From assembly GCA_017450465.1 (NCBI GenBank), contig JAFSUW010000005.1:1-32799 (forward strand): a stretch of DNA of 32,799 nt. Direction: 5' to 3'. This DNA is from Clostridia bacterium (lineage in GTDB: Bacteria; Bacillota; Clostridia; TANB77; RGIG9151). The notes under the pieces were generated by a model. That model was not told where the DNA came from, ran no database searches, and saw only the letters and a list, made by a program, of their open reading frames with translations. Positions 1-24,532 of the stretch are shown piece by piece (position 1 is the stretch's first letter; each line of letters begins with the position of its first letter). A program made the translations under genes and the position numbers.

Positions 1-193
1 AGTTTTTGCCGGTCAAAAAAACTGGATGTTTTTTTGAGTGACGATTAAGGCATGGATGCCGCATCGGAACGACCGGCAATCGTTTTGGCTAGAAATGAAA
101 AAACGTAGCGCTTGTGAGCGTTATTTTTTATATTTTGTAGTAACAAATAATTTGATATAAAAATTTTTCTCAGATAAACAACAATTTATAAAA
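1..193. repeat. Inverted-repeat (MITE-like) element, copy 1, left end cut by window
   Basis: Bases 1-90 match the core of the element at 24241-24532 closely: both contain the block GCCGGTC or GTCGGTC, an A-run/T-run hairpin, a GGCA/TGCC hairpin, then GACCGGCAATCGTTTTGGC. The right end at about 173-190 (AGATAAACAACAATTTAT) matches the terminal sequence of the second copy. The arm between core and end has diverged. No transposase is encoded, so this looks like a non-autonomous element. The left arm lies outside the window. Confidence 0.7.
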
Positions 194-217
194 AAATAGA
201 AGCTACTAGCTTCTATT
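193..217 (-). terminator. Rho-independent terminator of the unknown two-gene operon
   Basis: Read on the minus strand, AAATAGAAGCTA pairs with TAGCTTCTATTT and is followed by a T-run. It starts immediately after the stop codon of the 447-aa gene and abuts the end of the repeat element. Confidence 0.8.
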
Positions 218-1561
218 TTAATGTTCCATTCCAACATTTCTTGGTGGTGCTTTTTCTCCTTTGGTTTCTATCTCCTTAGATTGTTCATCAAACGCTCTAC
301 AAATTTCTAGCAAATCCGCCATACAAGCATTCTTGCTAATTTTTTTATTAAACACTCTATTTCCATCTATATGCTTAGATACATTTACACCTTCCTCACT
401 ATAACTTAAGTAATAACCACTAGGAAGTATTTTAACTATTTTTTCACATTCTATGTGATTTTCATATCTATATAGTTCACTAAATGGCATACTTAAAGTA
501 CCTTCTAAAATTGGTTCTGCTCTTTCTGTCTCATGTTGCCTTCGTAAATCTCTAACTTTCAAAAACAAGTCATCTATTAAGTTAAAATTAACATCTTCTA
601 AAAATGCTTCCCTTTTTTCATCTGAGTCAATTCGAAATCCTTCTTTTATTTTTTTTACCATCATTCCTAGTATTTCTTCATCACTTTTTAGTGAATACTC
701 GTTTCCTTCTTTTTTTATACCAAATGTAGTCACTATTCCTGCAACTTTTAAGTATTCTAATACACTTTGAGCAGATATTTGTTCTTTATCTATCAATCCT
801 TTTTCCATTAGATGTTTTACAAGAATTTTTGATCTATCGTTAGCTGAATCACTAATATAGTAATTAAAACTTTCAGAAAAACTACCAAATCTTTCATTTA
901 CAATTCCTTTATACATAAAATCATGTTCATAAGATCTTGAAATGTCAGAATAATCTGCAGCAAAGTCTATACCGCAATCTATAATATTTAATATATTCTG
1001 TAAATTAAAACTTTCATTCGCTCCATTTTGATTATCTGTAACATAACTAATTATTTGGTCTCTTTGATCACATATGTTTTCTTGTTGCATCAGTATTGAA
1101 TGTGCATGCCCTGCAGCATTTTTGTCAGTATGAAAAACTTTATAACCATTCAGATTCAAAAAATTTCTTAAACATTTTGTAGGGTCGCCTTCAAAATATA
1201 CTATTTTATATTTTTTTAGTTCGTCATCAGAAAGTGGAATTTCTACACCTTTTTTTACCATGATAACCGCATCTTTTGAAAGCTCTATACTAGTACCACG
1301 TGTCCACGAATCTGAAGGAGAAAGACCTGCTATAGCAGTTCCCATATTATCATTATCCATTTCATTTTCATGCACGCCAAAATCATCAACAATCATGTAG
1401 TCTACATCATCCCAATTTCCTCTTCCATCACTAGTTGATTCAACCCTGTTATTTATTGTAAAATGTACCTCGTGTCTATGGCTAGGAGCTGTAATTTCTT
1501 TGATTACACCATTAACACTCATATCACCAACCAACATTTTCTTTCCATCATAGTTTGACAA
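218..1561 (-). CDS. Unknown 447-aa protein, second gene of an accessory operon
   Basis: I do not recognise this protein. It is soluble, acidic to neutral, with no signal peptide or membrane segment. The N-terminal part (about 1-130) looks beta-rich and has a His-rich stretch (SHRHEVHF, about 27-34) followed by many acidic residues; the part from about 140 to 380 looks helical. The start is TTG at 1561 with GGAAG just upstream. The same frame stays open further upstream, running over the end of the preceding gene, so the start is uncertain. It follows the 170-aa coiled-coil gene by about 50 bases and ends in a clear terminator, so the two probably form one transcript. The operon sits beside a mobile repeat, which suggests accessory gene content. 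Its function is unknown. Confidence 0.75.
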   Translation of the reverse strand: MSNYDGKKMLVGDMSVNGVIKEITAPSHRHEVHFTINNRVESTSDGRGNWDDVDYMIVDDFGVHENEMDNDNMGTAIAGLSPSDSWTRGTSIELSKDAVIMVKKGVEIPLSDDELKKYKIVYFEGDPTKCLRNFLNLNGYKVFHTDKNAAGHAHSILMQQENICDQRDQIISYVTDNQNGANESFNLQNILNIIDCGIDFAADYSDISRSYEHDFMYKGIVNERFGSFSESFNYYISDSANDRSKILVKHLMEKGLIDKEQISAQSVLEYLKVAGIVTTFGIKKEGNEYSLKSDEEILGMMVKKIKEGFRIDSDEKREAFLEDVNFNLIDDLFLKVRDLRRQHETERAEPILEGTLSMPFSELYRYENHIECEKIVKILPSGYYLSYSEEGVNVSKHIDGNRVFNKKISKNACMADLLEICRAFDEQSKEIETKGEKAPPRNVGMEH

Positions 1562-1608
1562 AATTCTTCCATGTTCTCCACCATGTGGAAAATAATTTGT
1601 ACAATGAA

Positions 1609-2121
1609 CTAGAATTTTTTATCAGCAGTTTGTTGTTCAAAATCTCCTAATACTTTAATATTTTCGCCCTTATCTGTTATAATAAAATCTTCACCATCTT
1701 GTGCAACATATGGTATTAATGGATTTTCTTCTATTCTTGCTTCTTCATTTTCATATTCTGCTAGTGCTTTTTCATATTTTGGGGTTATTTCTTCCTGTTC
1801 TTGTTTTGCTATAGCAAGTTGTTCTTCTAGCTTTTCAATCTCTGTTTCCAATTCTTTTTTAGTCATATTTTGCTCATATAGTTTTCCTCTATGAAAAATA
1901 TTCAACACTCTATCAATTATATTTACTTTACCACTTGATATTAGCGAAGTTTCCATCTTTTGTTTCAATTCGCCTATTTGGTAAGTTAAAGAACTAATTT
2001 TTATATCTATAGATATGCTCTCACTCTTTATTTGTTCAAAAGCACTTGCTACTGCTTCGTATCTACTTTGTTTATCTACTTGTTCATCTATTACTTCTTG
2101 TGGATTAAAATCTTTTAACAT
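1609..2121 (-). CDS. Unknown 170-aa coiled-coil protein, first gene of an accessory operon
   Basis: I do not recognise this protein. Residues about 10-65 and 85-130 have the heptad-like, Glu/Lys/Gln-rich character of a long coiled coil, interrupted around 65-82 by a short segment (GKVNIIDRVLNIFHRGK) that could be an amphipathic turn. The C-terminal 40 residues look like a small beta-rich tail. There is no signal peptide. The ATG at 2121 is preceded by a perfect GGAGGT seven bases upstream, so the start is secure. A sigma-D-like promoter motif lies about 30 bases upstream of the start. The gene is followed by the 447-aa unknown gene in the same operon; the coiled coil may serve as a partner or scaffold for it, which is inference only. 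Confidence 0.8.
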   Translation of the reverse strand: MLKDFNPQEVIDEQVDKQSRYEAVASAFEQIKSESISIDIKISSLTYQIGELKQKMETSLISSGKVNIIDRVLNIFHRGKLYEQNMTKKELETEIEKLEEQLAIAKQEQEEITPKYEKALAEYENEEARIEENPLIPYVAQDGEDFIITDKGENIKVLGDFEQQTADKKF

Positions 2122-2151
2122 ATTTTTACCTCCGACTTTTTCTCAAATTAA

Positions 2152-2177
2152 CTATCGGCTTTTTATGTTAAAATTTA
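2152..2177 (-). promoter_or_regulatory. Candidate sigma-D (sigma-28) promoter for the unknown operon
   Basis: On the minus strand the sequence reads TAAA, 14 bases, GCCGATAG, close to the sigma-D consensus TAAA-N15-GCCGATAT. It lies about 30 bases upstream of a strong ribosome binding site and start codon, the right distance for a short leader. This is a motif match only; no transcript evidence is available. Confidence 0.5.
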
Positions 2178-23416: not shown

Positions 23417-23429
23417 GTTTATACTCATT

Positions 23430-23693
23430 CTATAAAAAAAATAAATTAACTACACCAATAATAGCCAAAGAAACTATAACGAACTCTACAAAGAGTAAAA
23501 ATATAATTTTTATATTAGATTTATTTGTTATTTCAATAATGGTTCTCAATATAAAAATACATGCTACCAAAATATTAGGCAGCCAAAATAAAAGTGTTCC
23601 CTCTCTTCGAGGGACTACCGCATTAGAAAAAGTCAATAAAAATAACTGCATATTACAAATCAGCGCAATTAAAAATTTATTAAGTTTTTTCAA
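23430..23693 (-). CDS. Unknown small membrane protein, duplication unit 2
   Basis: An 87-aa paralogue of the protein at 22567-22866. The shared N-terminus KKLNKFLIALICNM is followed by a shortened loop (VPRREGTLLF) and two more hydrophobic segments (about 35-50 and 62-85). As in unit 1, I use the TTG nine bases after GAGGAG (23693). Compared with unit 1 the middle is 12 residues shorter. Downstream there is only the CYTH fossil. Function is unknown; it is probably tied to the 149-aa protein encoded immediately upstream. Confidence 0.65.
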   Translation of the reverse strand: MKKLNKFLIALICNMQLFLLTFSNAVVPRREGTLLFWLPNILVACIFILRTIIEITNKSNIKIIFLLFVEFVIVSLAIIGVVNLFFL

Positions 23694-23708
23694 TAAAATC
23701 ATCTCCTC

Positions 23709-24158
23709 TTACTTATGATAATAAATAATTTTACCATTATAATTTATATATCCAGCACTCATGCTTGAATAACCATAATTTGAGCTTTTACCTGCAATAA
23801 TAAAGCCTGTGCCTACTATTGCAAAACCAATTACTATTGACATTAGTGAATTGATAATTACTTTTTTTACTGTATTTTTACCTTTATTTAATATAAGCAT
23901 GGTTATAAAAAATATTATTGGAACAACATACTGTAATACCTGTAAAACAAGTAGTAACATCGCTATCCCCTTACTCACAAATCCAATTTCAATTGGTACT
24001 GCAGCAACTTGAAATGGATTCACTGTCTCACCCGATTCAGTAGCTGATTCATTAAGCTCTATATCATCCCATTCTCGTGGTACTAATGCCCAAACACATG
24101 TAGTCAAAATACTTAATACTACAACAGCCAAAGTAATTATTTTTATAAATTTTTTCAA
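23709..24158 (-). CDS. Unknown secreted or membrane protein with pilin-like topology, unit 2
   Basis: A 149-aa paralogue of the 137-aa protein. It has a signal peptide (about 1-24, ending CVWA), an acidic Ser/Glu-rich segment (WDDIELNESATESGE, about 29-43) absent from the other copy, then the shared core GIAMLLLVLQVLQYVVPI, a NKGKN loop, a second hydrophobic segment and the identical Tyr-rich tail. The start is TTG with GGAGGG eight bases upstream. The acidic insert accounts for most of the length difference. The stop codon overlaps the ribosome binding site of the next gene, so the pair is tightly coupled. Confidence 0.65.
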   Translation of the reverse strand: MKKFIKIITLAVVVLSILTTCVWALVPREWDDIELNESATESGETVNPFQVAAVPIEIGFVSKGIAMLLLVLQVLQYVVPIIFFITMLILNKGKNTVKKVIINSLMSIVIGFAIVGTGFIIAGKSSNYGYSSMSAGYINYNGKIIYYHK

Positions 24159-24240
24159 TTTGTTTTCCCTCCATATTTCGATATATCCTCCAAAAAATAT
24201 TCTAACATTTGAATTTTAATTTAGCAAGTAGATAAAATAC

Positions 24241-24532
24241 TCAGATAAATTGTTGTTTATATGAGTATTTTTGTTTGATATTGAAATAAATTAATATAAT
24301 TGCAAAGCAATAAATACAAGCAAACATTGAATGAAATTTGTCTACATTTGCCCAAAACAGTTTTTGTCGGTCAAAAAAGCCGGATGCTTTTTTGAGTGAG
24401 TATAAGGCAAGGATGCCGCATACGAACGACCGGCAATCGTTTTGGCGCAAATGTACAAATGGAATGGCCGTTTGCGGTATTTATTGTCTTGCAGTTATAT
24501 ATTAATTTAATCAGATAAACAACTATTTATCT
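24241..24532. repeat. Inverted-repeat (MITE-like) element, copy 2, complete
   Basis: Arms of about 100-130 bp are imperfect inverted repeats. The ends carry AGATAAATTGTTGTTTAT and, inverted, AGATAAATAGTTGTTTATCT, each nearly palindromic itself; further in, AATAAATAC and ACATTTGC motifs are mirrored. The core at about 24360-24448 matches bases 1-90 of the window. There is no transposase. The right end overlaps the last two codons of the AsnB-like gene. Confidence 0.75.

Follow-up and report, generated by a model that had tools for sequence, protein, structure and literature searches.

The stretch of DNA analysed here, referred to as the window, makes up the first 32.8 kb (32,799 nucleotides) of contig C19 (G000:C19:1-32799) in G000, the 1.47 Mb draft genome, 94% complete, of a Clostridia bacterium. 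Two copies of a long hairpin unit lie within it, one at the very start of the contig and the other ending at position 24532, and at the tip of each is a branched structure in which an outer stem encloses two smaller hairpins (Table 1). Judged from its sequence, this tip is the TwoAYGGAY RNA (Rfam family RF01731). An earlier note on this DNA had described the layout shared by the two hairpins. Re-reading of the sequence agrees with it and the arrangement exceeds chance, with 33 copies of the core detected in G000 by blastn and a z-score of -8.25 for the predicted fold of copy 2 (-88.1 kcal/mol). As the opposite strand gives z = -9.99, the folding energy of copy 2 cannot be used to pick the strand. 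Copy 1 begins at the first base of the contig and its left arm is therefore incomplete, having been cut by the assembly.

Identity and distribution of the hairpin tip

A default Rfam scan gave no match for the window because both copies score under the gathering threshold of RF01731 (43 bits); copy 2 reaches 42.0 bits over 24328-24468, and copy 1, with its 5' end cut, 31.7 bits over 1-129 (101.7 bits with a model termed R1). When a relaxed scan was applied to 13 G000 copies in 10 chosen loci, RF01731 was found in 12 of the 13, in 9 cases at or above gathering, and five more G000 copies exceed the gathering score.

TwoAYGGAY was listed in a 2010 survey from human gut, gamma-Proteobacteria and Clostridiales, and was considered there to be probably an RNA and probably neither cis-regulatory nor a riboswitch (PMC2864571). 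A tandem GA in a stem has since been recorded for it (PMC4333381) and further structural points have been added (PMC11701678, PMC11661157). The tips described here share with the published motif an outer stem bearing two hairpins with GGA loops, the tandem GA and the match to the family model. They differ in occurring also in tens of copies in a second phylum, that of Marinitoga, and in being carried by mobile units; the published passages on the motif that were consulted do not mention mobility. No functional test of TwoAYGGAY was found in the literature searched.

Table 1. Positions in the window of the two hairpin units and their parts
Feature	Position	Strand	Description
Copy 1	1-191	+	Left arm missing at contig start; right end repeat at 173-191
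Copy 1, tip	8-77	+	Outer stem GCCGGTC/GACCGGC at 8-14/71-77, from sequence and alignment structure
Copy 1, hairpin 1	15-35	+	AAAAAAAC-TGGAT-GTTTTTTT; loop TGGAT at 23-27
Copy 1, GAGTGA	36-41	+	G-A partner at 67-68
Copy 1, hairpin 2	49-60	+	GGCA-TGGA-TGCC; loop TGGA at 53-56
Copy 2	24243-24532	+	Unit with an inverted AGATAAATTRTTGTTTATC-type repeat at each end (24243-24261, 24514-24532)
Copy 2, stem P2	24352-24358	+	CCAAAAC, pairs with GTTTTGG at 24439-24445; helix 2 of alignment, 100% of cells paired
Copy 2, tip	24364-24436	+	Outer stem P3 at 24364-24372/24428-24436
Copy 2, outer stem	24366-24372/24428-24434	+	GTCGGTC/GACCGGC, one G-U pair
Copy 2, hairpin 1	24373-24393	+	AAAAAAGC-CGGAT-GCTTTTTT; loop CGGAT at 24381-24385
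Copy 2, GAGTGA	24394-24399	+	Junction GA, G-Y pairing bases and first half of tandem G-A mismatch; partner at 24424-24425
Copy 2, hairpin 2	24400-24423	+	Inner GGCA-AGGA-TGCC at 24406-24417; loop AGGA at 24410-24413

A blastn search of G000 with copy 2 returned 35 matches, of which 33 cover the core and 2, both short, fall on an outer arm. One lies just outside the window (C19:34167-34260). Several others sit at contig ends, the repeat thus breaking the assembly. The repeat was found by blastn in none of 56 close relatives, and model R1, run on 287 genomes of the window's order, matched G000 only; the latter is a soft negative, as R1 recovers just 11 of the 33 G000 copies. The number of candidates scored per genome was restricted (11 with R1, 6 with RF01731 and 46 with R2, introduced below), so that copy numbers should be read as minimum values and no absence is firm. 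There was no match in the plasmid sequences searched, and a degenerate pattern for hairpin 1 had no exact match in the viral collection IMG/VR. Pairs of copies in close, opposite orientation, reminiscent of paired repetitive extragenic palindromic (REP) sequences, were seen at L032 (1996-2315), L189, L217 and G329:C2:1620123 and 1620407.

In a genome collection the same degenerate pattern had four exact matches, all in Marinitoga lauensis, whose phylum we take to be Thermotogota and thus other than the window's, which is probably Bacillota. R1 scores these at 56.8 to 74.4 bits, and the M. lauensis genome holds 18 matches. A second model, R2, which was built from a cross-phylum alignment and thus partly on M. 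lauensis, found matches in 9 of the 103 genomes from Marinitoga's phylum, one of the nine being M. lauensis. There were at least 40 matches in G326, at least 33 in G329 and at least 46 in G330; that in G389 is weak (best E 5.6e-4). Within the window's phylum RF01731 was detected in 56 of 398 genomes (44 of 267 genera), over gathering in 34 of them, and in 0 of 14 control genomes. R2 recovers 16 of 29 RF01731 loci of this phylum.

Covariation and fixed bases

Alignment A1 comprises 27 of the 33 G000 copies, the other six being cut by contig ends. Its common structure consists of a stem, a three-way junction and two hairpins, with 92.2% of cells paired, and 18 of the 43 core pairs are altered on both sides. 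Covariation is 0.225, a value reached by none of 500 shuffles, compared with 0.105 after shuffling, and partners slid out of register give at most 0.063. In alignment A2, seven of the 33 G000 copies were left out as cut; applied to 26 G000 copies with their arms, RNAalifold finds 60 pairs, 32 of them with double-sided changes. The two window copies illustrate this behaviour: as had been pointed out earlier, an A-T pair in hairpin 1 is replaced by G-C on both sides, and the single change in the outer stem of copy 2 (GTCGGTC/GACCGGC) keeps a G-U pair, both of which the sequence bears out. Neither of the adverse outcomes named in the earlier note, that no further copies would exist or that more copies would lack compensatory changes, occurred when tested.

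Comparison between phyla separates what is kept from what is rewritten. Alignment A3 has 33 rows, 19 of the 27 from G000 and 14 of the 18 from M. lauensis, and a covariation of 0.502 against 0.194 shuffled. The GGA of both loops, the junction GA and the tandem G-A mismatch are fixed, each base being found in 30 to 33 of the rows (30, 33, 33 and 31 for the four positions of the mismatch), while the stems are rewritten, for example with AAAA/TTTT in place of TTTT/AAAA. In seven genomes of Marinitoga's phylum other than M. lauensis, 69 matches in 62 loci (two places being counted twice, as loci L138 and L217 overlap) have GGA in loop 1 in every case and in loop 2 in 57. Covariation over 58 distinct rows of Marinitoga-phylum matches, in an alignment fitted to the model, is 0.557 against 0.182. 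In A1, GGA is kept in loop 1 of 24 and in loop 2 of 25 of the 27 G000 copies, and the leading A of AYGGAY is present in loop 2 of 25 of them.

Selection on the structure of the tip is thus supported. The earlier note had allowed for either a branched RNA or a folded DNA form; of these the RNA is favoured, because the match is to an RNA family of Rfam and because only one of the two strands has the GGA loops and G-A mismatches.

The carrier unit

The carrier is a dispersed, non-autonomous hairpin resembling a miniature inverted-repeat transposable element (MITE). This was proposed in the earlier note and agrees with the end repeats seen in G000 and with the end repeats and flanking duplications seen in relatives. 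The AGATAAATTRTTGTTTATC-type end repeat has 38 matches in G000, compared with none for a reversed control, and is present at both window copies; many other G000 copies do not show it. The copies in G000 itself are probably mobile too.

Other end types were found around the same tip elsewhere. In Marinitoga's phylum, both TGTCYAAAAAGT ends are present in 27 of 49 copies tried, some of the other 22 having the second end type of this phylum, described next. The units with both ends mostly measure 184-193 bp, with 4 of the 27 between 273 and 344, and 20 of 27 are flanked by a repeat of 8 nt or longer, compared with 9.7% of mismatched flanks; L124 and L125 among them represent one inherited insertion in two genomes. 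The CAGACTG type of the same phylum has both ends in 20 of 30 copies tried, the remaining 10 not having both, and at least 12 nt of shared flank in 9 of 20 against 1.1% of mismatched flanks. Its units often lie between two copies of a terminator-like hairpin, with up to 24 identical bases (L110, L208). In G508, from the window's phylum, a CAGACTGTAGACAAA end is present in 4 of 5 copies read, flanked by repeated hairpins (20 nt identical in L240).

A terminator-like hairpin on both sides of the unit was seen at L105, L106, L108, L110, L111, L208 and L222, and in G508 at L236, L237, L239 and L240. It looks as if the insertion duplicated the whole terminator. At L105 and L106 the two hairpin copies differ, each still being self-complementary.

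Nested units, in which a tip with its own arms lies within the outer arms of another class, are found at L100, L101 and L102 of M. lauensis and at L210, L211, L212, L214 and L216 of G326. Like MITEs, REP sequences and bacterial interspersed mosaic elements, the units are short, dispersed, non-coding inverted repeats with end repeats, and with flanking duplications in relatives. They differ in that it is the tip and not the ends that is conserved, several end types share one tip, and no helper enzyme was seen.

G000 also contains short units with AGATAAATTRTTGTTTATC-type ends and no tip (C18:60409-60585, C21:8390-8585, C29:118754-118953 and C20:20441-20835), some of which hold GC-rich GTAGGGGCGGG-type hairpins, that is, other cargo between the same ends. 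Within the window, a 35-nt inverted repeat, 91% complementary, at 17740-17827 contains the 13-mer GAAGGGACGGGGG and is perhaps another dispersed hairpin; the 13-mer also occurs in 5 of 251 fetched loci (L052, L056, L073, L080 and L081, some of which overlap in place). To the left of copy 2, small open reading frames (ORFs) in the region 22491-24227 are crossed by direct duplications of 300 nt (92%), 141 nt (86%) and 53 nt (91%).

A possible role in CsrA sequestration

CsrB/RsmZ-type RNAs carry many sites for the regulator CsrA on each molecule. They are known from Gammaproteobacteria and present GGA hairpin loops in pairs, as does TwoAYGGAY, for which CsrA binding as a sponge was proposed in 2014 (PMC4333381). 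The units described here differ from them in offering two sites per RNA, in their many dispersed copies and in that csrA was not found in G000. The window copies belong to a family of long, near-perfect hairpins with the TwoAYGGAY RNA at the tip. Transcribed on the given strand, the tip would fold as a three-way junction presenting two GGA-loop hairpins; the two loops would bind the dimeric CsrA and many copies would jointly act as a sponge, its effect following from dosage. A dispersed, non-autonomous mobile hairpin with a TwoAYGGAY tip, whose likeliest role across the family is that of a CsrA sponge, is the explanation preferred here, with close to an even chance of being correct; the role is unproven, and in G000 it is doubtful.

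The distribution of csrA is consistent with such a role. Of the 398 genomes searched in the window's phylum, 284 have the gene: 52 of the 56 RF01731 carriers compared with 232 of the 342 non-carriers (odds ratio 6.2, p = 4.6e-5) and, by genus, 41 of 44 carrier genera compared with 154 of 223 (p = 6e-4), in tests that both ignore shared ancestry. It is also present in 9 of 9 carriers of Marinitoga's phylum, a figure that comes without a base rate for that phylum. The best promoter-like site (TTGACA-N17/18-TAATAT or TAATGT) is predicted in the sense arm of 13 of 27 CAGACTG-type copies and in the antisense arm of 1 of 27.

Besides the limits attached to the csrA figures, several observations weigh against the sponge explanation. 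Hairpin 1 is without an A two bases before GGA in all 27 copies of A1 (C or T in column 46), an argument against a complete CsrA site in hairpin 1 of the G000 copies. GGA itself is broken in 3 (loop 1) and 2 (loop 2) of these 27, and 12 of the 69 matches of Marinitoga's phylum are without it in loop 2. A measure of further pair types does not rise above shuffles (366, 87 and 445 of 500 for A1, A3 and the 58-row set, respectively). RF01731 was found in just 2 of 4 Marinitoga-phylum loci (47.8 and 42.1 bits, one over gathering), and its Rfam type is Cis-reg, whereas a sponge is not cis-regulatory. Neither csrA nor fliW was found in G000, at 94% completeness, although its family relatives G001 and G002 have both, with fliW next to csrA. 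Of the four carriers without csrA, all of which also lack fliW, two are 75% and 63% complete, and G571 and G000 94%. As to mobility, no target-site duplication was resolved in G000 when flanks were read by eye. The transposase or casposon-like enzyme with matching ends that the earlier note had suggested looking for did not materialise: none was recognised at nine TGTCYAAAAAGT-end loci without a listed R2 match nearby, in a search limited to these ends, with the first 60 residues of ORFs read by eye and no profile search.

As csrA was not found in G000, the window copies are not classed as CsrA-sequestering RNAs. Those in G000 could be relics, could act on a csrA that escaped detection or could have some other role. 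In an alternative for the family, considered unlikely, the RNA passenger at the tip would bind a partner other than CsrA, or would stabilise or process neighbouring transcripts. In its favour, G000 and G571 carry the tip without a detected csrA, two separate GGA hairpins would not need a junction and tandem G-A so elaborate, the Rfam typing agrees with it, and the copies are intergenic and often beside terminator-like hairpins. No result points to another partner, however, and the orientation of neighbouring genes shows no clear sense-side preference: based on crude ORF calls, 16 of 65 copies have two sense neighbours and 27 have two antisense ones, the other 22 being flanked by one of each. 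Action on a neighbouring sense gene is therefore not indicated.

The fold might instead act as single-stranded DNA, the tip being recognised by a transposition or recombination enzyme and the RNA having no role. Hairpins are the recognition structures of IS200/IS605-type and REP-associated enzymes, and G-A mismatches are stable in DNA too. Furthermore, the units are mobile in relatives, and one tip under different arms and ends would suit the need of a common enzyme. Yet the ends are unlike in sequence and their duplications are of different lengths (about 9-12 nt compared with up to 24 nt), which points to different enzymes; none was recognised near the nine end repeats inspected, and an association with csrA is not predicted. 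On the sense strand there are more G-U than A-C pairs (24 to 7 in the Marinitoga-phylum matches; 18 to 9 in A3, with four irregular pairs left out), but this strand evidence is weak because all 43 pairs of A1 give 16 to 24; the restriction of GGA loops and G-A mismatches to one strand is the stronger point. A DNA role of this kind is judged quite improbable. A functionless, selfish palindrome, its paired changes arising as template switching repairs imperfections, would account for arms that differ by lineage yet remain complementary, and for the many double transversions and few G-U intermediates. Such repair would erase unpaired positions, whereas the GGA loops, junction GA and tandem G-A are fixed across phyla and the stems rewritten. 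As a full explanation it is very improbable; palindrome repair may nonetheless lie behind part of the covariation in the arms.

Returning to the CsrA sponge, a more ambitious version can be envisaged, which on balance is rather unlikely to hold in full. This would be a transposon family in at least two phyla with a sponge RNA as its conserved passenger, in which each jump adds one RNA and copy number sets the dose. The same tip would have been taken up by different end types, one of them inserting at, and duplicating, intrinsic terminators so that neighbouring genes keep theirs.

In the literature searched, no function has been tested for TwoAYGGAY since its listing in 2010. That literature was not found to describe its mobile, many-copy state, how it has multiplied in Marinitoga's phylum, the sharing of one tip by several end types, the duplication of terminators or the co-occurrence with csrA. 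Insertions that seemingly duplicate a whole terminator are of interest by themselves. Collectively, a mobile passenger in many copies, its multiplication and its co-occurrence with csrA make the 2014 CsrA proposal testable outside Gammaproteobacteria. If that proposal is true, a mobile element would tune a global regulator through its copy number.

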